Positions 6,001 through 58,230 of a DNA stretch of 64,000 bases are shown piece after piece. Within the stretch, counting starts at the first letter, position 1; every line of letters starts with the position of its first letter. Origin of the DNA: a virus; IMG/VR virus record IMGVR_UViG_3300049855_000348, positions 126,001-190,000 of that record; one strand, 5' to 3'. The notes under the pieces were generated by a model. That model did not search any database, was not told where the DNA came from, and saw only the letters and a list, made by a program, of their open reading frames with translations. Both the position numbers and the translations under genes were made by a program.

Positions 6001-9000
6001 CACCAGTGCGCAACTGCTTCGCCACGCTGAGGCCACCGCTGAGAACCACCGAGGCGGTGCCAATCGCCGAGGCATCAGTCGTATCACTGATGACGACAAG
6101 ACCAGCACCCTGGGTGTAGATGGCACGATTGGTGCCAGCACCAGAAATCGGTTCGATTTCAAGAGCGTTGTAGGTGGTGATCGCACCACCACCTGAGATC
6201 TGAGGAGCGCCGAGGTAGATGCCACGTGCTGTAGCGATGACTCCAGCAGCCGAGATCGAGACACCACCCGCACGGATGGTGAAGGCGTTCGTCATGTTGC
6301 CGGCAGCGGTGACGGCGATGTCGAAGTTACCAGCTACCGCACCAGTGACCGTACCGGTACCGGCGTGGATGACGGATCCATAGACCGCACGCAGGCCAAT
6401 GGCTGCGGTGTAGTTGAAAGCGTTGGCGCTTGTTCTGACAATCGCTCGATTCATGACGCGATTGGCATTATTTGCCGTGAGCACCATCGTCACATCAGAG
6501 AGGAATGGACTTACATCAGCACCTGGATCAGTGATGGTCATGCCTTGGCTGATCGCACCTGTCAGACCGAGGGTAGAGCCATTCCAGGTAAGGTTTGCGC
6601 TTCCAGTGATTGTGTTGGTACCAGAACCATAAGCGACTTGGTTGGAGGCAATCGAACCACCGATCGTACCACTACCAAGCTGAACCGTCGCTCCATTGAT
6701 ACGAACGAAAGCCGCCGTTGTGGTTGTCCACAGATCTCCATCCACCGGCGAAGAAGGAACAGCGCCATGCGGAAGATTGAAACCAGCACCACCAGAGGCT
6801 GATGCTATCGTGGTCACCTTGTTCCCGAATGTCCACTTGTAGAGCGAACCAGAGATCACTGTTCCCGCTGAACTGTCTGCATCGAGGAATCGGTTAGAAG
6901 CAAGCGATGCAGTAACACAGGAGAAGAAGGCACGAGTGCCGGAAACATCATAAACGGTCGTCAACGCCGGAAGAGCCGCATAGGTGTCAGAGGTCAGGAA
7001 GATGCTGGTGTTGTAGCCCAGTGCTCCGACCAGTTGAAGACCTGCACGGGAGGTTGTTCCACCGAGGTAATTCTGAATCTTTGCAAGAATATCACTGTTG
7101 TCGGAATAGTTGAAATCGAAATAGCTGGTCGATGTCAGAACACCCGACGTGTCGATGGACATCGTGAGCGTCGAACTGCCTGGCATGAATCCGATGCCAG
7201 CGGTGGAACGGAATCCCATGGCATCCGCAGAAATGGCCCCTCCACCGCCAGACACAGCGGAGTAGTGGCCGAAGATAATAGGTGCCGTTCCACTCCTATA
7301 GAAAAGCTGATAAACGCCATTTGCCGAAGTAGAATCGACCTTGAAGATTTCTGAGTTCGCACCGCCCGACAACGTCAGCTTGCCGCCAGCGAAAATGTTT
7401 CCGCCACCGATCGCCACAGAAGTAGCCGCGACACCATTGCCAATAGTGATCGAACCAACAGTAGAACTCGTTGCTGAAGTAGTCTCTGGGAAATTGATGT
7501 GCGTGACAGTCGAGCCAGAACGAACGGCTTCAAAGGCAATCGAAGCGGTGTTCAAAGCATCGTTGAGAGCACGCAGTACGAACGTACCCGAAGAGGTTGC
7601 GTACGAATCCCAGAACCGATTGTCTACTGTGGCACCTCCATGATTCCAAGAGATACGCGGTGCAGATCCCTGAATCGTCAGTGCAATGTCGGAAGTAGAA
7701 CCAGAGATATAACTTCCACCACCGGCGTGGATACCGTTTCCAACAAAGAGATCTCCGTTGATGCCAGCACCACCAGTGACAACAAAAGCACCAGTGGTGG
7801 TAGAGGTGGAGGTGGTGCTGTTATCCACCAACACACTGTTCGACCCAGCGGTACCGGCGATAATATGCAGATTTCCATTTGTTTGTGAGATATATGAATT
7901 GAATGCTATGCTATCGGTAAACTGCAAAGTCGTATCGGCACCACTACCATTTGAGGCAATACGATGGATGATATTCGCACGAAGAGTCGTGCTAGTGGCG
8001 TTGACCTCATACACATTCAAACGACTTGTGGTGGAGGATAGAGAAACGTTCGGATCAACACCGATACGGACAAACAAAGAACCAATCGCAGCACCAGCAA
8101 CGATATTACCACCGCCGATACCAACGTTGGTTCCAACAGTTGAACCGTCACCGATATTGACAGCACCGGTAAGTGTTGTGGTAGAGGCTGTGGTACTTCT
8201 AATGGTGACCGTCTGTCCGGTGGTCTTGGCCACAGTGAAAGTGCTGTCAGCACTTACCGCAAGCAAACCATCACTAGCAGCGATGGGCAATGTACTTCCT
8301 ACCGTGACACGGAAGTCTGTTCCCGTGGGAACGCCGATGTAAATGTGGCCAGTAGAGAAAAATGTAGCGCCATCAACACTTCCAGGAGCCGGACCACTGC
8401 TGTGCGTGATGGTGCGCTGCGTACCACTGAATTCGATGCTGGTATTGACGGTCAGCAGTGATCCATCAAACGTCAGATTCGCCGATCCCTGAATCGTGTT
8501 TGCTCCGGATCCAAACGCGACTTGGTTGACTGCGATCGTACCACCGATGATGCCAGCAGCAGACAACGTCGAGTTCACCCACAGTGTGCCGTTGTAGCGA
8601 AGAAGATCACCGGTCGTAGGTGAGGTGATCGTGACATCCGAGATGTTGGTCAGAGCCGGCAGAACATCAACATTCACCAGGATCTTACCAAGCGTCGGGT
8701 GTGCTCTGGCAACGGTACCGATTCGGATCTGATTCGCTGGTGACGTTGGTTGCGTGGCAGTCAATGTTCCAGAAGTCGTGAGCCACAACATATCACCATC
8801 TGAAAATGCCGACGTGTTGACATCGCTGGCAATTCCACTGGTGACAACATAGCCATCCGAGTTGTTGGCGATGGGGACCGTCACGATACCGATGGAGCGG
8901 AAGCCAGTGGAGTTGGCGTTGGTGGCCAACGTGATATTTGGCCTGAAACCAGTCGCACCCGAGATGTAGACGACCTTTCCAGCCGCAATGGTTGAGCCGG

Positions 9001-10164
9001 TGCTATTTCTGACCAAGGCAACCGATTCTTGCCCCATGTGAACGACCTGCACGTCGTTCCAGTAAGTCATGGCGTTCTGGTCTGAATCGTAGTAGAATCG
9101 GCCCTCTGACAGAGCCGGAACCGAGGCACCGGTGTCCAATTGTCCGTAACGGAAGCTGACAGCCTTGGAGGTCGAATTGAAGGTGAACGTTGCGTCACCG
9201 GCAAGCGTGTCGAGAGCACTACCGTAGCCAATCTGAGTGGCTGCAAGAGTACCCAGAATCGTACCAGTTCCTGCCGGCAGATCCGCAGCCACCAAGGCTC
9301 TGAACGTTGGAACCGCTAAACCACCACTGGTTGGGCCAGCGAAGACAAGGTTGGCAGCCTGATTCGTCAGCGTGCCAGTCAACGTTCCCGAGGTGGTGAC
9401 TGGCGAGCCAGAGACCGAGAAGATCGACGGGAGTGACAGTCCAACCGAGGTGACCGTGCCACCACCTCCACCAGCACCGACAGCAACCCAGCCAGTGTTC
9501 CCAGCGCCGGATTCCTTGACGTAGAGAGTGGTCGACGTGCCGCCATCGGTACGCTGGAAGATGTCACCAACAGAACCAGTGACGACACCCTCAGGAGTGC
9601 CAGTGCCACGCTTGATGTTTTTGGCGATGATGACGCCGGCAGCGTTGGTAAAGTCCGTGCCATCGAAGGTCAGATTCGCCGAACCCTGAATGGTGTTCGT
9701 GCCCAGGCCGAAGGCCACCTGATTGGCTGCGATCGAGCCACCGATTGAGCCACCAGCACCGGCATCGAGTTGAACGGTCACACCACCACGGCGAGCGAAG
9801 ACACCAGTCGACTCAACCCAGAAGTCACCATCCTGAGGAGTCGAAGGGGCAGCACTCTGAGCGATGTTCAGACCGCCACGAGTTGCAGAAGAGTTGGCAA
9901 GGACACGACCAGAGACCTGTGCATCGCCGGTGATCTCGACGCCATTGACCGACACCGCCAAGCGGTCAGTACCCATGACAACCGTGACCATTTTCTCGGC
10001 AGCAACAGTGCGGTCGAAGTAGAAACCGATACGACTCGGCCCGCTATGAGCTTCGAGCCAGGACTTGTCGCCATCCGCCTGCGGAGCGGCAAAAGCGAGG
10101 TAGGAGTTGTCACCAAGGACAACCGAGCGGAAACCCGTATCTCCCATCCATGATTGTTTCATGA
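1..10164 (-). CDS. Giant repeat-built tail fibre-like protein (partial, C-terminus beyond the window)
   Basis: One frame stays open from the ATG at 10164 to the left edge, giving at least 3388 residues with no stop. The product is very rich in G, S, T, A and N, as in long beta-structured phage fibres. Three module types recur. Module A contains LTTQRAF...PTYAFVGASTIT and has about seven copies between roughly 120 and 3260. Module B contains HGTAPSSP-NGD-WTT...GTIGGSIA--QVA-GSG-NTI-GSA and has about seven copies, near 490-650, 1040-1225, 3355-3535, 3990-4190, 6580-6780, 8475-8640 and 9670-9880. Module C contains TSATSSTVGS-TIGNGVAAT-VAIGGG and lies around 4460, 5090, 5660, 7390, 7740 and 8090. 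The N-terminus (MKQSWMGDTGFRSVV) is non-repetitive and could be the virion-attachment end. It lies downstream of a terminator, so it is probably its own late unit. A receptor-binding or decoration role is inferred from composition and repeats only. Confidence 0.8.
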
Positions 10165-38370: not shown

Positions 38371-38973
38371 TTACCTGTAAATGGTGATTTTAGCGGCAAC
38401 ATCAAGATCGTCCTTACGAACGCCCAAAGTGCCAGGAATGGGTTTCGCATAGGCAACCAGTGATATCCGTCCTAAGACATAGGCGTCAGCGATATTGTTG
38501 TCGCTGGATTCAAAAGTCCAGCGTTTGTAGACCCCGAGCATCACTTGGTCCTTCTCACACGTCCCTTTGCCGGTGGCGAACTTCTTCAGTCCATTGGTGC
38601 CACAGCAGGCGAAGTGCCAGTCGGTCCTGCTCATCATGATTCTGAAGTGCCAGCCCAGACCACCGAGCTTGGCCATCTGATGAGCTTGAGAGAAGGCGAA
38701 GTCTTCCATCACCGCACAGACCTTGCGACCAGCAGCGATCTCGGTGACAAACTTGTAGGTCTCACTGAACAAAGTGACGATGCGGTGGACTTCATCCATC
38801 GGCGTCGAGCCGGCCTTGGTAGAGATCAGTTTCTGGCCAAGCAATGTGCCCTGGTCGTCAAAGATACAGACGCCAGTGCCGGTCATCGACTGGTCGATGC
38901 CAACATAGACCCCACCCTTCACCCAGGGAGAGACTTGCACGCATGCGGGTACGAGGTTCTTTTTCTTAGCCAC
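38371..38973 (-). CDS. RuvC-like Holliday-junction resolvase / RNase H-fold nuclease
   Basis: The GTG at 38973 is chosen because GGAAGG lies six bases upstream, giving 200 residues. GIDQSMTGTGVCI (first Asp, about residue 27), VMEDFAF (Glu, about 88) and the C-terminal SSDNNIADAYVLG (Asp, about 158-161) with a preceding GKGTCEKDQVM match the RuvC/YqgF-type active site of phage resolvases. It would cut branched DNA made during recombination-dependent replication, clearing it for packaging. T4 uses the unrelated endonuclease VII for this step. It overlaps the stop of the 86-residue gene. Confidence 0.78.
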   Translation of the reverse strand: MAKKKNLVPACVQVSPWVKGGVYVGIDQSMTGTGVCIFDDQGTLLGQKLISTKAGSTPMDEVHRIVTLFSETYKFVTEIAAGRKVCAVMEDFAFSQAHQMAKLGGLGWHFRIMMSRTDWHFACCGTNGLKKFATGKGTCEKDQVMLGVYKRWTFESSDNNIADAYVLGRISLVAYAKPIPGTLGVRKDDLDVAAKITIYR

Positions 38974-39226
38974 TGACACCCTTCCGTCGCGCCCATCGAC
39001 GTTCGTGTTCGACATTCACCGCTGCGACTTCTTCAGCTTTCAGCGATGGTGACGTGAGCGCACGGAAGTGTTCAGCCTTGAGGCGGATCTCATGTGCGAC
39101 ACGACGCAGTTCGGCTTGGGCCACACCTGCGCCGTGCCCGCCAGCCGCTACCTTCTCTCGATTCAAACGCTGGCTGTTGGCCAGGGTCACGAGATCGTCA
39201 AAGATGCGGATGGCGTCAGGAGTCAT
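38966..39226 (-). CDS. Small helical protein of unknown function, 86 aa
   Basis: Nearly all helix by composition (MTPDAIRIFDDLVTLANSQR... VAHEIRLKAEHFRALTSPSL). Its start overlaps the upstream stop (TGATG) and its stop overlaps the resolvase GTG, so it is tightly coupled to both. It may partner the resolvase, but only context supports this. Confidence 0.6.
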   Translation of the reverse strand: MTPDAIRIFDDLVTLANSQRLNREKVAAGGHGAGVAQAELRRVAHEIRLKAEHFRALTSPSLKAEEVAAVNVEHERRWARRKGVSG

Positions 39227-39777
39227 CAGACGTGGTTGTAGCCGTCCCCACCGTTATCGACGATGCTCTTGGCAGCAACGTTGATCGATGGAGCGGTACC
39301 AGACTTCGGCCAGTTGGTGTCGAGATCGCGGTTGGCGATATCGGTTTCGTTGACGATGAACGGACGGATCAGACGTTCAGCCCATCCACCGACTTCAACC
39401 TGAGCCAAGGTGGCTGACTTGTAGAGGATCATGCGACCTTCGTCGCCGACCTGAGCACCTGCGGACATGATCTTTTCGATCACACCGCCACCAACGACAG
39501 CGCGGGTCGTGTAGGTGTACTCGGATGACGACTTGAGGAACGTGTAGTCCTGGTTCGGTTTGAGACCACTGTTGGTCGGCACGAAGCCAGAGCCATGCAC
39601 CGTCGGGACACGCAGAACTTTTGACGGCACCTCTTTCTGCGCTGTCAGACCCGGCTGAACAACGAAGTTCATGTCCCCGATGGTGAACTGGAGGACCTGA
39701 TTCTTCTGGTTGTTCTGCGTCTGGAGTGCAGGGTTCTGATTCACTGCCGTCGAATCAAATGGATAGGTGGCGAGCAT
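39226..39777 (-). CDS. Unknown protein, 183 aa (late-type start chosen)
   Basis: Two starts are possible. The ATG at 39777 (MLATYPFDSTAVNQNPAL) follows a TACATAGG box and GGAG. The ATG at 39849 overlaps the stop of the Mre11-Rad50 gene and would add a hydrophobic signal-peptide-like end (MIRTLALLTLIFAASSYIG). I prefer the shorter form. The body is beta-rich (VLQFTIGDMNFVVQPGL, YTYTTRAVVGGGVIEKI), suggesting a virion or exported protein. No family is recognised. Confidence 0.55.
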   Translation of the reverse strand: MLATYPFDSTAVNQNPALQTQNNQKNQVLQFTIGDMNFVVQPGLTAQKEVPSKVLRVPTVHGSGFVPTNSGLKPNQDYTFLKSSSEYTYTTRAVVGGGVIEKIMSAGAQVGDEGRMILYKSATLAQVEVGGWAERLIRPFIVNETDIANRDLDTNWPKSGTAPSINVAAKSIVDNGGDGYNHV

Positions 39778-39793
39778 GGCGTGTTTCTCCACG

Positions 39794-39801
39794 CCTATGT
39801 A
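39794..39801 (-). promoter_or_regulatory. Candidate late promoter box TACATAGG
   Basis: The box is 16 bases upstream of the ATG at 39777, with GGAG between. It lies inside the longer alternative frame and supports the internal start. Confidence 0.35.
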
Positions 39802-39845
39802 GCTGGACGCAGCGAAAATCAGAGTCAGGAGGGCCAGGGTCCTGA

Positions 39846-42800
39846 TCATACCGGTTTGATCGCCCAGGAGGTCTGCTCATCGACCATGGTGGCCACGATG
39901 GTACCAGCACGGCTGGAACCCGGCACATCGGCGTGGGTGATGACGAAGATCCGCTTCACCCGATTGACCATGGAAGCGATCAGATCCTGCACGGCACGGC
40001 GACCCTTCACGTCGAGGGCGTCGAAGACTTCGTCGAGGGCCAAGAAGCCGGCACGGTGCCGAGAACGCTGACGGGCCAACTCGAAGATCGAGAATAGCGC
40101 AGCCAGATCGGTCCACTTGCGCTGACCGCCTGAGCGCCGGCCATACCGTTCCTGGTAGGTCAGATCCGAGTTGAAGGTGAGGGTCATCTTCCCGCCGAAG
40201 TGTTGTCCGATGTAGGACTGGACGACGAGATTGAGTTGTTTCACGCTCTGGTCAAGCAGGAAACCCCTCATGGAGCCCTTAGCGGCAAAAGCCTTGTCCC
40301 AGAACGTGATGTAAGCCGATTTCAGGTCCAGGGCATGCGCCTGAGCCTTTGAGGTTTCCATCGCAGCGAACGCAGCCTGTCGGTCGGCGACCAAACGGTC
40401 CTTGGCGATCTTCAGAGCGGCAGCCGGGTCGGTGGCGGTGAGGTTGCGCTCCTCTTGAGCCAGGGCCGCCTCGGTAGCGGCTCCACCAGCCTCCAGGGCC
40501 GACTTTTCTTGCAGGAGGGCCGAGAGTTCCCCGGTGAGGCGTTTGTGCTCATCCTGAGCCTTCTGGAGGGCTTCTTTGGCCGAGACGAGATCCGTCACCG
40601 CCTGTGATGCCAGGATCAGATCGGCCTTGGTCCGGTAGGCACTCATGATGGCAAGTAGACCGTCGAGGATCCGCTGGAAGCCGGAGGCAGTGATGATGTC
40701 CTCCAGCCTCTCCGGCATGGGCAGGCACTGGTTGGCCTGTTCTGCGAATCGAGCATCGACCTGCTGCCGGCGTACGGCGATGGCCTGCAACCGAGCTTCC
40801 ATGTCCGGCAGGGACTTGGTCAGCGTTTCGAGCACGGTCTTGGCCGCAGCCAACTGGGCCAGGGTGGCGAGACCCTTGAGGGATTCATCAGCCTGAACTC
40901 GCAGTGCCTGGGCTTCGCTGATGAGTTTGGTCTGTTCGGCTTTGTAGGTCCGGTACCCTGCTCGCAGGCTCTCCAACTCAGCGTTGAGACCCTTCACCAC
41001 GTTGACCATCGATTCGCCATTGATCGAAGTCAGACACGTCGGGCAGTCACCACCAGTGGTGAGCTTTGAGAGCTTTTCAGCCTTCTGTGAGATCGGCGTT
41101 GCTTGCGTGGTGGTGGCCTCGGCCTTCGCACCTTCAGCCGCAGCCAACTGATCTTTCTGTGTTGCCTCTTGGCGGAGGACGTTGGCACGTTCATTGGCAG
41201 CAACCACTGCCGCTTCCTGTTTCAGTGCCGCTTCGAGACCAGTGATGCGATCACGAACAGTGCCGATCTCCGACTTGAGGATGTTCTCCTCGTTGGTGAT
41301 GTTGTTGTGATCGATGCAGCGGGAATTCCAAAGCGATTGAAAGCGAACGATGTTCTTGTTGGTCTCTTCCGCCTTGTCGACGTTGGCCTTCGCCTCGACA
41401 CGGATCGCCTCGACACCACCAGAGAGTAGTTGGACCTTCTCGGTCGCAGCCTTCACCACATCGTTGCTGTACTGAATAGTCTGCTCACCACTGGCTTCTG
41501 CATACATCAAACGTTCGCGTTCTTGACGCATCTTGACCTGATGGTCGTTCTTGCGCTGGGCCACTGAACTCAACATCACCTGATGATTCTTTTCAGCGTC
41601 GAGGATCTGCGTTTCGATGGCAGAGATCTGCGCTGCTGAGCGTTCGATTTCACCAGCACGAACCTTCTGAATGTTGGCCTGTTGTTCGAGTTGATCACTC
41701 ATGAGTTTCTTCAACTCACGAGTCTTCTCCAGGTAAGCGTCGAAGCGTTCGAGACCCAGCATCTCTTCGATCATGGCACGACGTTTCTTCTCGTCTCCGG
41801 TCATGAAGTTGGCCGTCACGTTTTGGCCCATGATGTAGGAACGACTGTAGGTCTCACGGTCGATGCCGATGAGATCGATGATCATCTTCTGGGTAGCTTT
41901 CGGATCACCCTTCTCGAATGACTCTTGATAGACGCCATCCTTGTAGACCTTCACACCAGTACCGCCGAGGTCGTGGTACTTGCGGAAGCGTTCGATGCTC
42001 CAGCCGTTGGCATGGTTCACCCGAACGTAGCAGTTCTTCCCCTTGCCGGTGAACTGAGGGTCGTAGACCACATCGTCAGCCTTCATCTCATCACGGATGG
42101 TCTCGCCGAAGTAGCACCAGAAGATAGCTTCGAGGAACGTGCTCTTGCCGGCACCGTTCTCACCTTCGAGGTACCACACGCCTGGACGCAGGTCATCAAA
42201 ATTGATGGTGATCTTTTCCTTCACACCAAGGAAGCCCTCAAGAGTCAGGCTGGAGACTTCACCATCGAAAGCCATGCCACCCTTTTCGGCATCTTGGAAA
42301 CGTGAATTCACCTCAGCGATGATCGATTTGCCGAACTGGATGGTGATGTCCACATCCAATTGACTATCGCCAGTGATGACCGACTTCACGAAGGGCTCGA
42401 CGAGGCCAGCGGCGGAGGTGGCTTCAACACCGAGGACTTCAACCTCCTGATCACGAATCGCTTTCTCGATGACCGACTCTTTGCGTACCGAGATGACACC
42501 GGCAGCTTCGAGCTTCAGTTGCAGGGCTTCGTGCTGCTCATCGGTGACGAGGTCGTCATAGATGACAGTGACGAAGCAGTCCTTGAGTGTGGTCAGATCC
42601 TGCGGCAGATCGCTGACACCGAGAACCTTGAAGGCATCGTGGTGTGGATTGAGGATGAACCGGTCGTTACCGGTATCCATGTCGAGGACCATGATACCAC
42701 GCTGGTCACCGGCATCGCCGAAATTGAACTGGAGGGGTGAGCCGCAATAGGTCACCCGGTGATCCATGCGCTGGAAGACGTGGAAGTGGCCAGAGTAGGT

Positions 42801-43337
42801 GGCCTTGAATGGGGCGAACACGTCGGGACCGACAGCACCAGAGAAGGTGGTCTTGTAGCGGGTGTTCTGTACCGCACCGTTGATGCCGAGGTGACCGAAC
42901 ACGGTCATCTTGGCGGCACGCTCGGGGAACTGCCGGGCGAAGTCCTGCACGAAGGCGACGATCTTCGACTGGTCTTCGTAGTAGGGGATGAACAGGAAAT
43001 GATCACCTACCGGGGTGATCTCACGGAAGACCTTGATCTTCGGATGCATATCCAGTCCGTCGAGACTGCTGACGGAGGTAGAATGCTTGAGGTTGAGATC
43101 GTGGTTGCCCAGGGTGAGGAACACCGGCCACTTGTCGGCGAGCTTGCGAAAGAAGTTGATGGCAGCCGACTGGCTGACCACATCGACCGCTTCACGGGTA
43201 ACCAGGGCATCACCCATGCAGACGACGGCCTGCACGCCTTGTCGTTGGAACTCTTCAATGATCCAGTCGCCGGTTTTGATGATGCGATCCAGCCCCTGTG
43301 GCTGGAAGTGGATGTCAGAGAAGATTCCAAGTTGCAT
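39846..43337 (-). CDS. Single-chain Mre11-Rad50 (gp47-gp46) fusion
   Basis: One 1163-residue protein holds both subunits of the T4 gp46/gp47 (SbcCD) nuclease. The N-terminal Mre11 part has all phosphoesterase motifs: FSDIHF (D8, H10), MGD (42-43), GNHD (77-80), FGHLG and SGHFH (about 185). After a capping region of about 150 residues, the Rad50 part has Walker A GENGAGKST (about 385-393), long coiled coils, a CPTC zinc hook (about 764), the signature SGGQRK (about 1070), Walker B with FLALDEVFDALD (about 1102) and a terminal ITHAD. It resects DNA ends for UvsX loading. In T4 the two subunits are separate genes. The ATG at 43337 is chosen because it lies exactly six bases after the -10 box; another ATG is one codon upstream. 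Confidence 0.95.
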   Translation of the reverse strand: MQLGIFSDIHFQPQGLDRIIKTGDWIIEEFQRQGVQAVVCMGDALVTREAVDVVSQSAAINFFRKLADKWPVFLTLGNHDLNLKHSTSVSSLDGLDMHPKIKVFREITPVGDHFLFIPYYEDQSKIVAFVQDFARQFPERAAKMTVFGHLGINGAVQNTRYKTTFSGAVGPDVFAPFKATYSGHFHVFQRMDHRVTYCGSPLQFNFGDAGDQRGIMVLDMDTGNDRFILNPHHDAFKVLGVSDLPQDLTTLKDCFVTVIYDDLVTDEQHEALQLKLEAAGVISVRKESVIEKAIRDQEVEVLGVEATSAAGLVEPFVKSVITGDSQLDVDITIQFGKSIIAEVNSRFQDAEKGGMAFDGEVSSLTLEGFLGVKEKITINFDDLRPGVWYLEGENGAGKSTFLEAIFWCYFGETIRDEMKADDVVYDPQFTGKGKNCYVRVNHANGWSIERFRKYHDLGGTGVKVYKDGVYQESFEKGDPKATQKMIIDLIGIDRETYSRSYIMGQNVTANFMTGDEKKRRAMIEEMLGLERFDAYLEKTRELKKLMSDQLEQQANIQKVRAGEIERSAAQISAIETQILDAEKNHQVMLSSVAQRKNDHQVKMRQERERLMYAEASGEQTIQYSNDVVKAATEKVQLLSGGVEAIRVEAKANVDKAEETNKNIVRFQSLWNSRCIDHNNITNEENILKSEIGTVRDRITGLEAALKQEAAVVAANERANVLRQEATQKDQLAAAEGAKAEATTTQATPISQKAEKLSKLTTGGDCPTCLTSINGESMVNVVKGLNAELESLRAGYRTYKAEQTKLISEAQALRVQADESLKGLATLAQLAAAKTVLETLTKSLPDMEARLQAIAVRRQQVDARFAEQANQCLPMPERLEDIITASGFQRILDGLLAIMSAYRTKADLILASQAVTDLVSAKEALQKAQDEHKRLTGELSALLQEKSALEAGGAATEAALAQEERNLTATDPAAALKIAKDRLVADRQAAFAAMETSKAQAHALDLKSAYITFWDKAFAAKGSMRGFLLDQSVKQLNLVVQSYIGQHFGGKMTLTFNSDLTYQERYGRRSGGQRKWTDLAALFSIFELARQRSRHRAGFLALDEVFDALDVKGRRAVQDLIASMVNRVKRIFVITHADVPGSSRAGTIVATMVDEQTSWAIKPV

Positions 43338-43343
43338 CATCTC

Positions 43344-45215: not shown

Positions 45216-45579
45216 CCTGTTCCTTGCCGACCGATTTCTCGGAACGCCAGACCGCTTCGAGGCGACGCAGGAAGTCCACGTCACTGGCCTTGGGTGTCTT
45301 GGCGCTCTCGACGTGGTGGAAGCGAGCAGCGCCCTGTGCCTTGCGGATCTCCTTGGTACCGATGTGTAGGTGGACCACATCAGCCTTGGAGTGCTTGCGG
45401 ATCTGAGGGATTGCTCCAGCAGTGCCGTCGATCGCCAGAACGGCGACCGGCAGATCCGGAATGACACCGCTCACTTCCTCAGGCGTCTTGTAGAGGAAGG
45501 CTACGCGGTTGGCGAGCCAGCGTCCTGCTAGCTCGACATGCTTGTCCGTATCGCCGGTGATGAGGAAGATGGTTTTCAT
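45184..45579 (-). CDS. Unknown alpha/beta protein, 131 aa
   Basis: It starts MKTIFLITGDTDKHVELAGR; the hydrophobic strand followed by G-D-T-D resembles the start of a Rossmann-like fold. Later strands (VAVLAIDGTAG, ADVVHLHIG) fit the same idea. No catalytic motif is recognised. The ATG overlaps the exonuclease stop (ATGA). Confidence 0.6.
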   Translation of the reverse strand: MKTIFLITGDTDKHVELAGRWLANRVAFLYKTPEEVSGVIPDLPVAVLAIDGTAGAIPQIRKHSKADVVHLHIGTKEIRKAQGAARFHHVESAKTPKASDVDFLRRLEAVWRSEKSVGKEQDGRTPIKLPV

Positions 45580-46559
45580 GATGTCCACTGATTCCTGTAC
45601 GTGGTGCAGAGAAACTGGGCTGTTTGATTGGCTTGTTCGGTGGCGAACTGATGACGTTGTTCCAGCCAGAGGCTGAAACGGGTGAAGTTGGTGGCGATCT
45701 GTCGAATGCTCTTCTGCTCAAGCTCAGAGACGATGACTTTCACCTTCTGGTGAATCCTTGAGTTGAAGAGATCCATCATGGAGAGATTCAGAGCTACGAC
45801 AGCACGAGCATCCTGTGCCACAGGAACTGGTGTCGGGTTGTTCTTGCTCTTACGCGGAGTGACCATGCCAGTCTCTTCGGCCAGCAGCGTCGGTACACGC
45901 TTTTCGATGATCGCCTTGGTGGCCGTGACTTCACCGACACCGATGAGTCCTGGGAGGTTGTCCGAGGCATCGCCCTGAAGGGCTTTGCAAAGCAAGGATT
46001 CCTGAGGGGTCAAGCCGGTCGACTCGACAGTACCATCACCCTTGTAGCGCCAGATCTTCCCATCTTCGCCAAGCTGATAACGCAGTGAATGAACTGGGTC
46101 GATCATGTAGGTGGTGGCATTGATCAATTGCAGGTAGTCGTTATCCGCAGTGATCAAGATGCCGGGCTTACCAACGTTGAGAGCCACCGCAGCAGCGGCC
46201 ATATCATCAGCTTCGATCCATGGGTACTGGAAGTTGGGGCAACCCATCAAGGAGATGAGTTCTGGCAGTACCTCTTCGATGCAGGTCGTGGCCATGACAT
46301 GCGCTGCTTCACGCACTGGATCCTTGGCCAGTTTCTCGGCACGATGTGCCTTGTAGCTGGGATGGACCTGCTTCCGCCAGCTTCCGCCCTTTGGATCCAG
46401 ACACCAGTAGACACGGGTGGCTTGGTATGAGCGGATGAATTGAGCAACCTTGGCGATGATCTCCAAAGCCACGGCTGGAGGACCGTGACGAAGAGACTCG
46501 GGCGGCAGCGAGTTCGCTGTCGCATTGGCAAGGTAGGATGCATCGACGTAGAGGTACAT
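45576..46559 (-). CDS. rnh: 5'-3' exonuclease / RNase H (FEN family)
   Basis: The start at 46559 (MYLYVDASYLANAT) overlaps the upstream stop as TGATG and gives 327 residues, close to T4 RNase H (305). Active-site acids appear in YVDAS (residues 4-8), WIEADDMA (about 117), TADNDYLQL (about 139) and GDASDNLPG (about 198). The last is followed by the helix-hairpin-helix-like GVGEVTATKAI. WRKQVHPSYKAHR matches the family's basic segment. It removes RNA primers and 5' flaps during lagging-strand synthesis. Neighbouring helicase and primase genes fit this role. Confidence 0.9.
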   Translation of the reverse strand: MYLYVDASYLANATANSLPPESLRHGPPAVALEIIAKVAQFIRSYQATRVYWCLDPKGGSWRKQVHPSYKAHRAEKLAKDPVREAAHVMATTCIEEVLPELISLMGCPNFQYPWIEADDMAAAAVALNVGKPGILITADNDYLQLINATTYMIDPVHSLRYQLGEDGKIWRYKGDGTVESTGLTPQESLLCKALQGDASDNLPGLIGVGEVTATKAIIEKRVPTLLAEETGMVTPRKSKNNPTPVPVAQDARAVVALNLSMMDLFNSRIHQKVKVIVSELEQKSIRQIATNFTRFSLWLEQRHQFATEQANQTAQFLCTTYRNQWTS

Positions 46560-47089
46560 CACTCGGCCTTGTGGATCATCACGTCGCACGGGTCTTTGTC
46601 CCATGCATCGAAGGTGTCAGCCAGGGTGGTGAGATAGGAAAGATCGGCTGACGATCCAACCACTCGATTGTTGCCGACGACGATCTTCACATCACGCACG
46701 TTGGCGAGGTTGATGAAGGTCATCTCTTCCTTGTCGCTGCTCAGCAGGGCTTTCTTGAGCAACGTGGCGAAGTTGTCGTCTTCGCCTTCACTGGTTGGGT
46801 TGATGCGGAAGAAGTGAGTGTCGATCGGATAGATGGAAGCCTTCAGATCCCCCAGGAAACGAACCGTCAGGCTGCCCTGATTCTTGAGCGCCTGATTGAT
46901 CTGTTCCCGTAGAGAGACCGTGAAACTGCCGAGCACCGACGGGACCATGATCCCATCGTCATTGAACGGCAGTTCGAGCGGATCAACCTCAGCCGCCTTG
47001 GCGACCAACTTGAGCGCAGCGATGGTGCGCTGGACTGAGAAGTCCGGTCCAGTCTTATCCACCCTTCCGAAACGGATCACTTGGTTCAT
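46559..47089 (-). CDS. Unknown replication-cluster protein, 176 aa
   Basis: It starts MNQVIRFGRVDKTGPDFSVQ; the stop overlaps the exonuclease start and its ATG overlaps the upstream stop. Residues 75-150 look alpha/beta (SLTVRFLGDLKASIYPIDTHFFR, RDVKIVVGNNRVVG). Lying between exonuclease and helicase it could be a replisome accessory protein, but no T4 counterpart is recognised. Confidence 0.6.
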   Translation of the reverse strand: MNQVIRFGRVDKTGPDFSVQRTIAALKLVAKAAEVDPLELPFNDDGIMVPSVLGSFTVSLREQINQALKNQGSLTVRFLGDLKASIYPIDTHFFRINPTSEGEDDNFATLLKKALLSSDKEEMTFINLANVRDVKIVVGNNRVVGSSADLSYLTTLADTFDAWDKDPCDVMIHKAE

Positions 47090-47683: not shown

Positions 47684-49261
47684 CTACTTGGGAGTCGCTA
47701 TAGGTGGCGGTTGGAGCCCCATACCCCAGGCAGCATTTTCAGCCTGCTGACCTTGAGTGAGTTGCACGACCGCATTTTTGGCTTTGACCGAGTGAGTGCC
47801 GAACGACGAGGCACCCAACAGCGACTCCATACCAGCCTCTGGACTGTCTGGGGTGAATGGAGGTTGGATCGCCAGGGTTCCACTGCTGGCAGCTTTGGCG
47901 ATGGCAGCCGTGGTCGCCTTGGCTACCGCAGCGTTGTAGTTCATCGTTGAGGCCGAGTCCTCGGAGATACGCAGCGTCTTGTAGTCGACATCGGTCATGA
48001 TGGTGTAGCAGTCGTCGAAGTCGCGGACCTTCGAGGCATACAGGCGCATCTTGCCCATCTGCTTCTCAGCTTCGGTCTGATTCAGCGTCAGCACACAGTC
48101 CAACACATGCATGACAGCGTAGGAGTCGGCGATGTCTTCCTTGCCGATCTTCTCCTTGCTGGCTGCATTACGATTCGACTGGAGTGCGGTGACGATCGGG
48201 ATGTCCATCTCCATGGCGATGGCACGGACCTCTTCAGCGATCTGCTTGAGCTTGGCGTAGTCACGCTTCATGTCGACGTTGTCGGGATCGTTCGGCAACA
48301 TGATGGTCAGGTAGTCGAGAATGATCACGTCCGGCTTCGGGCCACCGAGCAGCAGGTAGTCATTGAGCGATCCACGAACGGTGTTCGCTGAGGCTGTGCC
48401 AGTTGGATGCTGGATGACGTAGAGTTTCCCCATCGTCCCTTTGTCTTTGATCTTCTTCAGCGCATCGTCGAGGATCTGAGGGTTGTTGCGACGCTCGTCG
48501 GAGGAAACACCACCGATGCAGACATCGTAGCGAGCCTTGGTTTTCTCAGCAGAAAGCTCGAAGGTGAAGTGGTAGACGTTCAAACCATTGAGAACACAGC
48601 AGGCACCGACATTCACGAGGTTGATCGACTTACCAGAGCCTGTCGGACCCATGAAGGCTGACAGGGCAGCTACCTGGAAGCCACCACCATGCTTGGCATT
48701 GAAGGTTGCCCACGGTGTCTTCACACCGGCCTTGAGCGTCTTCTCCTTGGTAACACGGGCGACAACTGACTCAGCCTCAGTGCTGAGGTAGGCATCAACC
48801 GGTTGTGCCAACGTGTGGCGAACGGTGATCTCTTCGAGGAGCTTCGGAATCGACTTGTGATTCTTCTGAGAGATGAGCTTGGCAGCCTCGATGATGAAGC
48901 GATCGTAGTCGACCGCCTTCATGTGATCCATCAGACAGTCTTTGGTGTATTTCTCTTCGGTCTGGTAGTTCTTGGTGAAAATTTCATCGATATATCGGAC
49001 GAAATTTTCCAACGCATCGTAGACGCTGAGATGTTTCAGCAGTTCTTGTTTGATGATCGAGATCGTCGGGAGTTCTTTGTACTTCGTCGTATGCTCATCG
49101 ACGATCTTGAAGATCACCTGGATGTGTGGTTCATTCCAGTGATCGACCTTCAGCCGATTCTTCCACTTGACCAGGAAGCTCTGGTCTTTGGTAACGATGA
49201 CAATCGCCTGCTGCTCGATTTCCGGAAGGAATTCAAGTTTGCGAGTCGGAATGTCGGTCAT
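47684..49261 (-). CDS. 41: Replicative DNA helicase, gp41/DnaB-like
   Basis: The 525-residue protein has a RecA-like core with Walker A GPTGSGKS (about residue 207), VIILDYLTIMLP (Walker B, about 315) and a Q-containing VTALQSNRNA (about 355), as in DnaB-type hexameric helicases. The N-terminal 180 residues are the helical primase-interaction domain. It unwinds DNA 5'-3' on the lagging strand and stimulates the primase, which is encoded at 52758 in this window. The C-terminal 90 residues are A/P-rich and look flexible. Confidence 0.92.
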   Translation of the reverse strand: MTDIPTRKLEFLPEIEQQAIVIVTKDQSFLVKWKNRLKVDHWNEPHIQVIFKIVDEHTTKYKELPTISIIKQELLKHLSVYDALENFVRYIDEIFTKNYQTEEKYTKDCLMDHMKAVDYDRFIIEAAKLISQKNHKSIPKLLEEITVRHTLAQPVDAYLSTEAESVVARVTKEKTLKAGVKTPWATFNAKHGGGFQVAALSAFMGPTGSGKSINLVNVGACCVLNGLNVYHFTFELSAEKTKARYDVCIGGVSSDERRNNPQILDDALKKIKDKGTMGKLYVIQHPTGTASANTVRGSLNDYLLLGGPKPDVIILDYLTIMLPNDPDNVDMKRDYAKLKQIAEEVRAIAMEMDIPIVTALQSNRNAASKEKIGKEDIADSYAVMHVLDCVLTLNQTEAEKQMGKMRLYASKVRDFDDCYTIMTDVDYKTLRISEDSASTMNYNAAVAKATTAAIAKAASSGTLAIQPPFTPDSPEAGMESLLGASSFGTHSVKAKNAVVQLTQGQQAENAAWGMGLQPPPIATPK

Positions 49262-49635: not shown

Positions 49636-50305
49636 ATGCCTCTTCCCATTCGGCCTGGGGTGTTACACCACGATGAGATTTTTCGGCAGTCTTACCGAGC
49701 GGCATCTCATGTGCGCAGGCTTCGACCGGAACGTAGAGATGACTGAGCGAAATGTTGAGCGCCCAGCCGGCAGCCTGCCCGACCAGATCACCCATCAGCA
49801 TGTTGTATTCTTCATCCATCGCTTCGGTCACCGAGGCGAACTGCTCAGGGGACAGTTCGAGCTTCGAGTAGGCAGCGATGTCTCCGAACCAGCGATCGAC
49901 GAAGATCACACCACCGCCATTGGCCTTGGCGGCAGCAACCTGGGCGATGAGTTTGCGAGCCAGGATGCCGGGCAATTCCCGCTGCATCTGCTCACGGAAT
50001 CCCATGAGGTTGATGTCGTTGTAGGTCTCAGGGTAGGGCTTACCCTGTTCCTTGAGTGATGCCTGAGTCTGCTGGAACCATGCGGTGGAGCAGGAGGGCA
50101 CCGAGAACTGGGTCAGGGATTTGTAGTCGTAGGAGGACAGATCGAACGAGCCGTCGATGGGGAGATCCGGGGTCTTCCCCTCCATCAGATCGGCCAGAGC
50201 ACTCTTCAGATCCGTGATCAACGTACTCTTTCCGACGCCATGTGCGCCGGAAAGAGTCAGGATGGTGATGATGCCACGTGGAAACAGGTTGTGAGAACGC
50301 GGCAT
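49532..50305 (-). CDS. P-loop nucleotide kinase-like protein, 257 aa
   Basis: After a short N-terminus a P-loop GAHGVGKST (about residues 20-28) is followed by an Asp-Arg motif VDRWFGDIAAYS (about 137) and a C-terminal lid region with basic residues. This arrangement fits the deoxynucleoside/nucleotide-kinase and NadR-like group of P-loop kinases. In a replication cluster it may supply dNTPs, but the substrate is not evident. The Walker A coding sequence forms a strong hairpin (50226-50256). Confidence 0.7.
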   Translation of the reverse strand: MPRSHNLFPRGIITILTLSGAHGVGKSTLITDLKSALADLMEGKTPDLPIDGSFDLSSYDYKSLTQFSVPSCSTAWFQQTQASLKEQGKPYPETYNDINLMGFREQMQRELPGILARKLIAQVAAAKANGGGVIFVDRWFGDIAAYSKLELSPEQFASVTEAMDEEYNMLMGDLVGQAAGWALNISLSHLYVPVEACAHEMPLGKTAEKSHRGVTPQAEWEEAYAAANHYTHSYRTVVVTAKDRLQRVAEVILGCFS

Positions 50306-50694
50306 TACTTGCCGGCCTTGATGTCGGCGAGGCTCAGATCATCCGAACGACGACGGCGCTTCGGCAGGTGAGCGTCCGAGACGAAGCCCTCAGGCAGGAT
50401 CGGGAACACGCACTTGTCGTAGTATTCCAGACCCTTCTCCGTCAGGATGAAGTCGCAGCGCGAGGTCTCGCCCTTCAGATTGATCTGAACACCTTGGAGA
50501 TCAGCAGGCGCATCTTCGATCAGGCCAGCACTCTTGGCCGGGTAGACCACATTGCGCTTCTCGTTGCGGCTGAGAACTCGGTAGTCATTCTTGACGACCC
50601 AGAATACCGCAGCCAGAGAGCAGCCGGGACGCGGCTTTTCAGGGAATGCGTTGTAATACGTGGTCTTCGGGTGCATTGGCTTCGGTGAGCCCAT
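50305..50694 (-). CDS. Unknown early-type protein, 129 aa
   Basis: The ATG at 50694 (MGSPKPMHPKTTYYNAFPEK) is chosen because AAGG lies nine bases upstream and the promoter at 50723-50750 gives a leader of about 22 bases. The protein has KNDYRVLSRNEKRNVVY and a basic C-terminus (PKRRRRSDD), so it may bind nucleic acid. No family is recognised. It starts the operon containing the kinase and helicase. Confidence 0.6.
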   Translation of the reverse strand: MGSPKPMHPKTTYYNAFPEKPRPGCSLAAVFWVVKNDYRVLSRNEKRNVVYPAKSAGLIEDAPADLQGVQINLKGETSRCDFILTEKGLEYYDKCVFPILPEGFVSDAHLPKRRRRSDDLSLADIKAGK

Positions 50695-50722
50695 AGTATC
50701 GCCTTTCGGTGCGGTCGCTCTG

Positions 50723-50750
50723 TGTATAGCGACAAAAAGATCGCGCACAA
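50723..50750 (-). promoter_or_regulatory. Sigma-70 promoter with operator in the spacer
   Basis: On the minus strand TTGTGC and TATACA are 16 bases apart; the spacer GCGATCTTTTTGTCGC carries the inverted half-sites GCGAT and GTCGC. Unlike most of the family this one is followed by a normal leader and ribosome site. It probably drives the 50694-47684 operon. Confidence 0.75.
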
Positions 50751-50763
50751 TAAAAATCAGGCG

Positions 50764-51090
50764 TCACGACTTGGCGTGCAGGATTCCCATAGCAGCGGAG
50801 AGCACTACCGCCAAGTGACCATCATCAATGGACTCGGGTTTCCGAATGCCGGGCATCCGGTAAAAATTCATTCTCGGCGGGAACTCTTCCTCCATCTGCT
50901 CAGCCAGAGCATGACCGATCCGGTCGTTCTGTTGTGCAGTCTTCACCAAGACCTCGACTTGCTGAATCGTGACGACGGCTTCACGACTGACGTTGATGCG
51001 GGTGACCTTCCGAGGTGTGAGCGTGCGCTCCCCGCCAGCGAGAGGGTTCTTCACTGGTCCCTGGTAGTTCGAGAAATCCAGGTCCACCAT
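50764..51090 (-). CDS. Unknown protein, 108 aa (start uncertain)
   Basis: The ATG at 51090 (MVDLDFSNYQGPVKNPLAGG) is chosen; a TTG at 51129 would add 13 hydrophobic residues. The middle is helical (SREAVVTIQQVEVLVKTAQQ). There is no clear ribosome site. It is the last minus-strand gene before the large gene-free region. Confidence 0.5.
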   Translation of the reverse strand: MVDLDFSNYQGPVKNPLAGGERTLTPRKVTRINVSREAVVTIQQVEVLVKTAQQNDRIGHALAEQMEEEFPPRMNFYRMPGIRKPESIDDGHLAVVLSAAMGILHAKS

Positions 51091-51129
51091 GGCTGGCAGA
51101 CTACTGGCTTGTAGCACCCACACAAGCAA

Positions 51130-51905
51130 TAGCAGTCAAAGGATCGCTAGGATTGACCCATCAAAATTGCCTTACTCAAAACTGCAAGGGTCAAAAAAAA
51201 CCCGGCGGAGTAAAATTTATAAAATTTATAAAAGTCATAAATTACTTGACAAAATATAATCTATCTGAGAATTGCCTTTGTCATGTCTTGCATTGCCAGG
51301 GTCCTGCCCTTGGATCAAGGTGGTAACAACTTAGCGCGAAGCGCGATAACTTACACTGACTGAGCTAAGCTAGGCTGTCCTTACAAGGAGAGTAAGAACA
51401 GCAAGACTTACAAGACTTGCAAGTCTTTCGCATTTTTGAAAGACGTGGTAGGGACTGCATAGACATCACTGGGGTATGAGAAGTCGCTACGCGAACTGGC
51501 ATGAACCTATGTTCTTGAGGATGACCACACCTTCATGAGCAAGTCTTCGCGCTTCGCGCTGAGGGTGTCTTGCCCTTGAGCTAAGGGTATGAAAGCATCA
51601 CTGGGATAGCTGGGGTCATGCAAGGCTTGTAAGCCGAGCAAGGCTTTCAAACCACACAGCCTAGCAAGCCACCGGCTTTCCGTTTTCTGGCCATCTGACG
51701 GGCTGTAGGTCGCCCAATGACCATCCAGGGTCAACCTGTCTCAAATCGCCCAGGAACGGCTCGATTGAGTACCCCTGATGAGATACGGATTGGTGTGACA
51801 CGGGTCAATAGAGACACTACCACATCCAGTATCGTGTTGTATTGACAGTTTTTGGGTGATGCCACACTTCGGCCTTCCGGTCTAAGTCAACACCCAGAGG
51901 AAGTC
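51130..51905. other. Gene-free, AT-rich and palindrome-rich divergence region; origin candidate
   Basis: No credible gene lies here. From 51160 to 51300 the DNA is AT-rich with a direct repeat of ATTTATAAA (around 51215-51232), TTGACA (51246) and TATAAT (51255). Two 13-base inverted copies, AGCGCGAAGCGCG (51333-51345) and CGCGCTTCGCGCT (51548-51560), lie 200 bases apart. A perfect 16-base palindrome AAGACTTGCAAGTCTT is at 51412-51427, followed by GTCTTTC-N7-GAAAGAC (51423-51443). Genes diverge on both sides. An origin, a structured RNA or a control region would all fit. Confidence 0.45.
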
Positions 51906-52523
51906 ATGCAAACGATCTACGACATCGAAACCATTGCCGTTCTCGATGCCAAGTCGATCAACCGTCGTTCCTTCCGATCTGGACCAGCCTCACGCATCCT
52001 TTCAATTTACGATGACCCTGAGATCCTACGGAAGCGACTTGAAGCGAATGTCCCCTGCCCGCTCAAAATGGCGATTGAAAAAAATGGTTACGATCCCGCC
52101 AATCCTCCGAAGTTGAAGCGCGGTCATTACATGGATCCGAAGGAGTTGTTCTACCGCACCATGAAAGTTCAGATGGCTGGTGGAATCGACAAAGCGGGTC
52201 GTGATGGAGAACGTTTCATCGAACTGCTGACCCTGCTGGCGAATGGTTATATGGGTCGCATCATGTTCAAGGATACCGGCTCGATGGCCAATCTCACTGA
52301 AGACATGGTGCAAGAAGCTATCACCAAGTGTGCGATGATCGTCATGCGCTTCAATCCCTGGGACCCCCGCGCCACCAAACCCACTCTCAATAACGCTTTC
52401 GCCTATTTCACCACGGTTATCCGCAATCGCTTCTATGAAACACTCACTTGCCCATTGGTCGGGTCGGATGTGTTCCTCGAAGATCTCAAAACCGAAAACC
52501 AGTCGATCGGTGATTTGATTTGA
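51906..52523 (+). CDS. 55: Late-transcription sigma factor, gp55-like
   Basis: The ATG at 51906 has AGAGGAAG six bases upstream and gives 205 residues, near T4 gp55 (185). The C-terminal half (FIELLTLLANGYMGRIMF ... NLTEDMVQEAITKCAMIVMRF ... NNAFAYFTTVIRNRFYETL, residues about 98-180) matches the sigma-region-2-like core of gp55, which recognises the late promoter box. With the sliding clamp it directs host RNA polymerase to late genes. It opens the plus-strand operon to the right of the gene-free region. Confidence 0.8.
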   Translation: MQTIYDIETIAVLDAKSINRRSFRSGPASRILSIYDDPEILRKRLEANVPCPLKMAIEKNGYDPANPPKLKRGHYMDPKELFYRTMKVQMAGGIDKAGRDGERFIELLTLLANGYMGRIMFKDTGSMANLTEDMVQEAITKCAMIVMRFNPWDPRATKPTLNNAFAYFTTVIRNRFYETLTCPLVGSDVFLEDLKTENQSIGDLI

Positions 52524-52547
52524 CTTAGCGACAATTTGGTCTAGATT
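52520..52547 (+). promoter_or_regulatory. Sigma-70-like promoter with operator-like spacer
   Basis: TTGACT and TAGATT are 16 bases apart on the plus strand; the spacer TAGCGACAATTTGGTC is the operator in reversed orientation. It begins at the sigma gene stop and would produce a roughly 200-base leader to the primase, antisense to the small minus-strand gene at 52541-52759. Confidence 0.5.
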
Positions 52548-52759
52548 GGCTTCCTGGAGGAAGTCCGTTTGACGAACTGTGCGACTGGCATCACGAGTGC
52601 ATCTCGTGACTCATCAACCAATGCGTCGATCTCCGCTGGCTCGATCTCGCCTTTGGCGGCTCGGGTGGCGATCAACTCGAATTTGTCGTGCAGGATTTCT
52701 TCCAGCCGCTTCGAGAGCGTGAAGATGTCACGCGCATGGTTTTTCTGAGATTCCGCCAT
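52541..52759 (-). CDS. Small helical protein, 72 aa
   Basis: It starts MAESQKNHARDIFTLSKRLE and continues EEILHDKFELIATRAAKGEIE, a composition typical of a real helical protein. Its ATG overlaps the ATG of the oppositely directed primase gene within one CATG. No ribosome site is visible. Function is unknown. Confidence 0.55.
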   Translation of the reverse strand: MAESQKNHARDIFTLSKRLEEILHDKFELIATRAAKGEIEPAEIDALVDESRDALVMPVAQFVKRTSSRKPI

Positions 52760-56946: not shown

Positions 56947-58230
56947 ATGTCCAAAGACAAAAAACCCGACGGCAAGCACAAGGCGTCGAAGGTCGATCGT
57001 GAAGGCGACGGCCCAGACATCTCGAACTTCGACAATTTCATGGACACCATCACCAAGGGTGTGGATCGCATCACCAATGTCGATCCCAACACCGCAGTGC
57101 GCTGGTTGTCCTGCTACAACGTTGCCACCAACCTCGCTCTGTCTGGCCATCCCGAACGTGGGCTGCCGGTCGGACGCATCATCAACTTCGAGGGTGAAAG
57201 CGACACTGGTAAGACCCTGCTCGCCTTGACCTGCATGCGTGAAACGCAGAAGCAGTACGGCAGCCTCTTCCGTGGTCTTGTCATCGACAGCGAACGCGGC
57301 CAGAGTCTTCAGCGCAATGCCGACCTCGGCATCATGGTGAAGAAGAAGCCCAAGAACGCCAAGAAGCCGAACGTCGAAGACGGCGAAGACGACACTGGAG
57401 ATCCCCGTGCCGGCACTTTCAAGGTCATCCAGACCACTGACGTGACCACCGTCGCCGACAACATCCTGCCGCCGTTCCTGGCTGCTGCTCGGGCACACCC
57501 CGAGATGATGTTCATCCTGCTCATCGACTCCGTGTCGATGCTGGTGACCGAGCATGAACGCAGCACTGACTTCGGTACTCGTGACATGGCTCGTGCCCAG
57601 GAACTCCGCAAGCTGATGCGCCTGCTGAACGATGGCTACTCGGACAACCTCACGGTATTCCTGGTCCATCACCAGACCGACCGCATCGCCACGGCTGGCA
57701 AGCAACTGACCGCTCAGCAGGGCACCCACGACAAGACCATCGGCGGTGGCAAGGCGATGAAGTTCGTCCCCTCCGTGCGCCTGGAAATCAGCTACGGTGG
57801 CAAGGAACGTCGCGGCTCCGGCGACAACGAGCGCATCATCGGTGCGAAGTGCAAGATCCAGGTCATCAAGACGCGCCTGTACCGCCCGCTCTTGATCGCC
57901 CAGACCTACATCGATCACAACACCGGCTTCACCCAGTTGGGCGGCTTGGCCGACCAGTTGGAACAGCAGGGTGTGATCACTTCGCCCAGTCAGGGCTTCA
58001 AGCAGTGCAAGGCACTCTTCGGCGACAAGAAGTGGCGTGAGGCCGACCTGGAGCAGGAACTGGAGAAGCCAGAGAACGCTCGTAAGGTCGTCGACATGAT
58101 CGTCGAGAAGATGCAGATGGCATCCTTCGGCGAGGGTGATGAAGCCGAACAGGCCAAGACGGAAGCGGATCCTCTGGATCTCGACTCCCTCGAAGCTCTG
58201 GCCACCAAGTCGGCTGACACCAAGAAATGA
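56947..58230 (+). CDS. uvsX: UvsX/RecA-like recombinase
   Basis: The 427-residue protein has Walker A GESDTGKT (residues 83-90), a Walker B region MMFILLIDSVSML (about 195), and a Q/H-containing FLVHHQTDRI (about 245) followed by a KTIGGGKAMKF loop, as in RecA/UvsX. It catalyses strand invasion, starting recombination-dependent replication. The C-terminal 60 residues are acidic. It lies after the UvsY- and gp32-like genes, a functional trio. The ATG has only a weak purine-rich ribosome site. Confidence 0.92.
   Translation: MSKDKKPDGKHKASKVDREGDGPDISNFDNFMDTITKGVDRITNVDPNTAVRWLSCYNVATNLALSGHPERGLPVGRIINFEGESDTGKTLLALTCMRETQKQYGSLFRGLVIDSERGQSLQRNADLGIMVKKKPKNAKKPNVEDGEDDTGDPRAGTFKVIQTTDVTTVADNILPPFLAAARAHPEMMFILLIDSVSMLVTEHERSTDFGTRDMARAQELRKLMRLLNDGYSDNLTVFLVHHQTDRIATAGKQLTAQQGTHDKTIGGGKAMKFVPSVRLEISYGGKERRGSGDNERIIGAKCKIQVIKTRLYRPLLIAQTYIDHNTGFTQLGGLADQLEQQGVITSPSQGFKQCKALFGDKKWREADLEQELEKPENARKVVDMIVEKMQMASFGEGDEAEQAKTEADPLDLDSLEALATKSADTKK

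Follow-up and report, generated by a model that had tools for sequence, protein, structure and literature searches.

Mre11 and Rad50 form separate chains in T4 and in the bacterial SbcCD complex of E. coli, therefore a viral locus in which both enzymes occupy a single open reading frame raises the question of whether such a gene is intact, whether its architecture is new, and how a joined protein might have arisen and might work. The locus lies in the window, meaning the whole stretch of 64,000 nucleotides analysed here, which corresponds to bases 126001–190000 of a 220,489-bp virus record. In our reading, the gene very probably encodes the only Mre11-Rad50 (SbcD-SbcC) nuclease of the phage as one chain, which most likely originated from the loss of an ancestral stop codon and would retain the normal assembly and role of the complex. 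The gene and its parts are arranged as follows.

39846–43340, minus strand: whole fused Mre11-Rad50 (gp47-gp46) gene, 1164 codons, with a tandem ATGATG start
42648–43337, minus strand: Mre11/SbcD calcineurin-like phosphoesterase domain (residues 1–230), all metal ligands present
42279–42647, minus strand: Mre11 capping region and C-terminal helix-loop-helix (residues 231–353), as predicted by the model
42258–42278, minus strand: junction or linker of about 7 residues (354–360); residues 349–355 have a pLDDT below 50 in the model
42273–42275, minus strand: in-frame ATG (Met355) with AAAAGGGTGGC upstream, possibly a relic or an active internal start
41748–42257, minus strand: Rad50 N-lobe (residues 361–530) with Walker A (G392ENGAGKST400)
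40284–41747, minus strand: Rad50 coiled coils (residues 531–1018), helical in the model at lower confidence
41034–41045, minus strand: zinc hook C765-P-T-C768, neither Cys of which varies among 19 sequences
39849–40283, minus strand: Rad50 C-lobe (residues 1019–1163) with S1069GGQRK1074, Walker B D1102-E1103 and H-loop H1135

The numbering of the protein (P0001) starts at the second ATG (43337), and the stop codon occupies 39848–39846 of the minus strand. A search of the record places the fusion at G000:C1:165849-169337, also on the minus strand, with zero internal stops. The GC content by codon position, high at the third and low at the second, keeps one phase across the junction and thus gives no sign of a hidden frame break. 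Judged from its sequence, the fusion is real, and it is apparently complete and intact.

Residues 1–347 match phrog_100 (SbcD) with an E value of 1e-42 and residues 362–1137 match phrog_77 (SbcC) with an E value of 2e-72, which are low enough to rule out chance. Pfam Metallophos scores above its cut-off in the nuclease half, as do AAA_23 and SMC_N in the ATPase half, where SbcC_Walker_B and Rad50_zn_hook fall below theirs. Within the first half, the motifs D8, H10, G42-D43, G77-NHD80, H149, H184 and H186 provide the metal ligands D8, H10, D43, N78, H149, H184 and H186 and the catalytic H79; the fold, the D, H, D, N, H, H, H ligand series and the catalytic His following the Asn place it in the Mre11/SbcD/gp47 family. 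The second half has the split ABC ATPase of Rad50/SbcC/gp46, with Walker A in the N-lobe and the signature, Walker B and H-loop in the C-lobe, and in the model long helices flank C765-P-T-C768, as expected for antiparallel coils that carry a CxxC hook at their tip. This half is about 806 aa long, compared to 560 aa in T4. In an alignment of 19 rows (the window protein and 18 relatives, in-frame gene pairs being read through their stop), the catalytic positions show no or almost no variation, H10 belonging to those that are nearly invariant. The first-pass annotation was therefore correct in describing a natural gp47-gp46 fusion in one unbroken frame, which carries every Mre11 motif that it listed as well as Walker A, CPTC, SGGQRK, Walker B and the H-loop of Rad50, and it was also right that the chains are separate in T4 and E. 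coli; it named no strand for the frame, which is placed here on the minus strand.

The view that the fusion is a new architecture fails, as such proteins are already common and described. Yoshida, Claverie and Ogata (2011; PMC3175470) listed 13 proteins in which Mre11 and Rad50 are fused, among them Mimivirus R555 and that of Bacillus phage 0305phi8-36, and found them in bacteria, plasmids and eukaryotes as well. The window protein has the same composition as R555 and the 12 others, with Mre11 first, Rad50 second, both halves in a single frame and a short linker between them. However, two conserved positions of the Mre11 motifs are substituted in R555, and the fusion of the Bacillus phage is devoid of one P-loop segment and of the cap/helix-loop-helix region (PMC3175470), whereas the window protein retains the motifs, the P-loop and the cap/helix-loop-helix region altered or missing in one or the other. 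The same enzymes, motifs and genome order are found in T4 gp47/gp46 and E. coli SbcD/SbcC as separate chains, with two small genes between gp47 and gp46 in T4.

Many further viral fusions have been deposited, and a search for them recovered examples from phages, metagenomic phage lineages and, among the top fold hits, several giant viruses. Xanthomonas phage XacN1 ORF305 (BBA65453, 1099 aa, annotated as 'recombination endonuclease subunit') is likewise a single-ORF fusion with both ATPase halves and a hook, and is 25% identical to the window protein in a pairwise alignment. Its match to phrog_77 starts in the Mre11 half (residue 178, profile position 130), which indicates that this profile includes Mre11-half columns. 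The recombination exonuclease of Listeria phage LMTA-57 (AID17555, 1009 aa) and the 951-aa protein phiXF1_71 of Xanthomonas phage phiXF1 each contain both domains in one deposited protein but are remote in sequence; the former is encoded by a single gene of a deposited herellevirus genome (L276, 851–3880), possibly owing to a recent stop loss or to a sequencing error. In the similarly remote BPT24_019 of Tenacibaculum phage pT24 (1310 aa), sequence search confirms the phosphoesterase half alone, and the other, ATPase half is recognised by fold match. The metagenomic phage lineages L089, L094 and L097 are also fused. In Stenotrophomonas phages RAS14 and CM1 the junction is open, and the Mre11 half of the genes as deposited is interrupted by a frame break (in CM1 according to the same ORF layout). 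This break, at about 4660–4720 (L087, L088), reflects either faulty sequencing or a genuine frameshift, and the first part of the RAS14 gene is unannotated.

By fold, the top match to the window protein is a viral-library entry of the same length as XacN1 ORF305, and the best matches in this library include proteins of 960–1420 residues whose alignments exceed 1,200 columns, as those of fusions would; their sources are Tupanvirus, Harvfovirus, Catovirus, Tenacibaculum phages pT24 and PTm1, and other viruses. The best rows of a plasmid search were all separate halves. Single-protein scans of viral and genome contigs detected no close relatives of the fusion, and the highest identity to anything found is 25–28%, so that the predicted activity rests on motifs.

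How fusions of this kind might form is suggested by relatives with separate genes. The two genes lie at most 60 bases apart in 94 of 195 distinct pairs, 31 of which are in frame, and in 8 of the 18 in-frame single-stop lineages listed the Mre11 codons are followed by a stop codon and then directly by the first Rad50 start (start codons were assigned by a mechanical rule). In the 19-row alignment, Met355 of the window protein shares its column with the start Met of the separate Rad50s. From these observations we infer that a single stop loss would make the fusion, and neighbouring in-frame genes that are split by a stop alone explain why fusion recurs. A single origin of all fused rows is rejected (AU p = 7.7e-6). 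The XacN1 fusion arose separately, because its closest relatives (32–43% identity) are unfused and it nests among them in the tree; a single origin of the remaining fusions is not rejected (p = 0.085), their branches being long. The window protein itself sits on a long branch with no close kin. The L094 family of uncultured phages (L268–L273), a separate lineage, is fused in all six contigs, down to 38% identity. L094, from the same contig as L268, has no His at the customary place two residues beyond the first Mre11 Asp. Mre11-Rad50 fusions have arisen repeatedly in phages and giant viruses, although no fusion rate is claimed since the sequences sampled were skewed towards relatives of the query.

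The two-chain Mre11-Rad50 complex is already a 1:1, M2R2 assembly. Because of this, joining the chains should have little effect on their ratio, and the proposal of the first-pass annotation that the fusion forces 1:1 stoichiometry is a weak argument that changes little. An AlphaFold2 model of moderate confidence (mean pLDDT 72, pTM 0.44) orders the protein as nuclease domain, cap, two C-terminal helices (309–320 and 329–353), a low-confidence joint, the ATPase N-lobe (from 361), coiled coils and C-lobe. By fold, its nearest solved structures are the Mre11:Rad50 complexes 3tho and 6s6v, and chains C and D of Mre11-Rad50-Nbs1 (7zr1). The two helices are the predicted counterpart of the Rad50-binding helix-loop-helix described in PMC3175470, where the Mre11 C-terminus was placed about 28 Å from the Rad50 N-terminus and a linker of 9–12 residues was considered to permit a normal complex. 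With these ends so close together and a modelled joint of about 7 residues after the Mre11 helices, the tether probably preserves the usual dimer, and the idea that it alters the construction of the dimer is unsupported; a swapped arrangement may also be possible.

The position of Met355 also bears on whether one chain is the only product. If this internal ATG were used as well, the gene would yield both the fusion and free Rad50 in a ratio that is not fixed at 1:1, which we consider unlikely. The codon sits exactly where separate Rad50 genes start, the AAAAGGG upstream has a Shine-Dalgarno-like pairing energy of -4.5 compared to -4.0 at the gene's own start, and the fusion L097 has a strong site at its Met349 (-8.9). 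However, ATG355 ranks third among 27 internal ATGs by pairing energy and is thus unexceptional, no comparable ATG site exists at the junction of XacN1, L089 or L094, and Met355 may be a mere relic of the lost gene border. That the phage would tune its nuclease-to-ATPase ratio within one frame by making free Rad50 from Met355 is less to be expected still.

A single fused chain with a conventional role is the reading we prefer, and the gene content around the locus is relevant to that role.

39226–39849, minus strand: gene that follows the fusion, 207 aa, without a family hit; its ATG and the fusion stop share bases (ATGA)
38371–39015, minus strand: RuvC-like Holliday junction resolvase, downstream (recombination module)
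45576–46604, minus strand: 5'-3' exonuclease (Pol I 5' nuclease type), upstream
47684–49261, minus strand: DnaB-like replicative helicase
56947–58230, plus strand: UvsX-like recombinase, expected downstream partner of the nuclease

The ATGA overlap between the fusion and the 207-aa gene suggests an operon. The window also contains a primase gene and encodes a major head protein, a portal protein and a large terminase. The prevailing gene direction seems to flip from minus to plus at about 50300–52758, between the helicase and the primase/UvsX sides. At the window edge, an open frame of at least 3387 codons (2–10162, minus strand) runs past the boundary and has no PHROG hit; it represents a giant phage protein.

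In the 220-kb record, no other phrog_100 (SbcD) match was found, and phrog_77 matches elsewhere just once, weakly and over 105 residues (E 2e-4). As far as the sequence goes, a separate gp46 or gp47 is absent from this record, which may be incomplete. The fusion might alternatively be a nuclease with a special task, such as degrading host DNA or countering defence systems, instead of a canonical end-processing enzyme. Cellular fused copies coexist with a separate pair and were argued to have possibly other roles (PMC3175470), and the Rad50 half is longer than that of T4; however, such specialisation is improbable for a sole copy that is accompanied by replication and recombination genes and shows neither losses nor additions except in coil length. 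It is extremely improbable that the genome truly has two genes joined by a sequencing or assembly error, for although no close relative carries the same junction to confirm it and deposited copies such as those of RAS14 and CM1 do show frame breaks, such an error would have to change exactly the stop codon, the codon-position bias is continuous, the linker length agrees with known geometry, and the same fusion is present in unrelated phages and kept in the six contigs of the L094 family.

To conclude, we propose that two adjacent in-frame genes became one in an ancestor of this phage when the stop codon that separated them disappeared. Two fused chains would associate both by the Mre11 dimer interface and by the ATP-bound Rad50 heads, and each Mre11 helix-loop-helix would dock at a coiled-coil base of Rad50, similarly to the two-chain complex. 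The fused nuclease would then resect double-strand DNA ends with ATP-driven processivity, and the resulting 3' overhangs would supply the phage UvsX-like recombinase for recombination-dependent replication and repair. A search of the available literature found no published functional test of a natural Mre11-Rad50 fusion. The gene adds a new phage example, with all catalytic motifs present, to an architecture published as early as 2011. Considered with the other lineages, it shows how such proteins can arise again and again, namely from in-frame neighbours that are separated by a stop codon alone. Furthermore, a natural single-chain Mre11-Rad50 is potentially handy for structural and single-molecule study of the complex.
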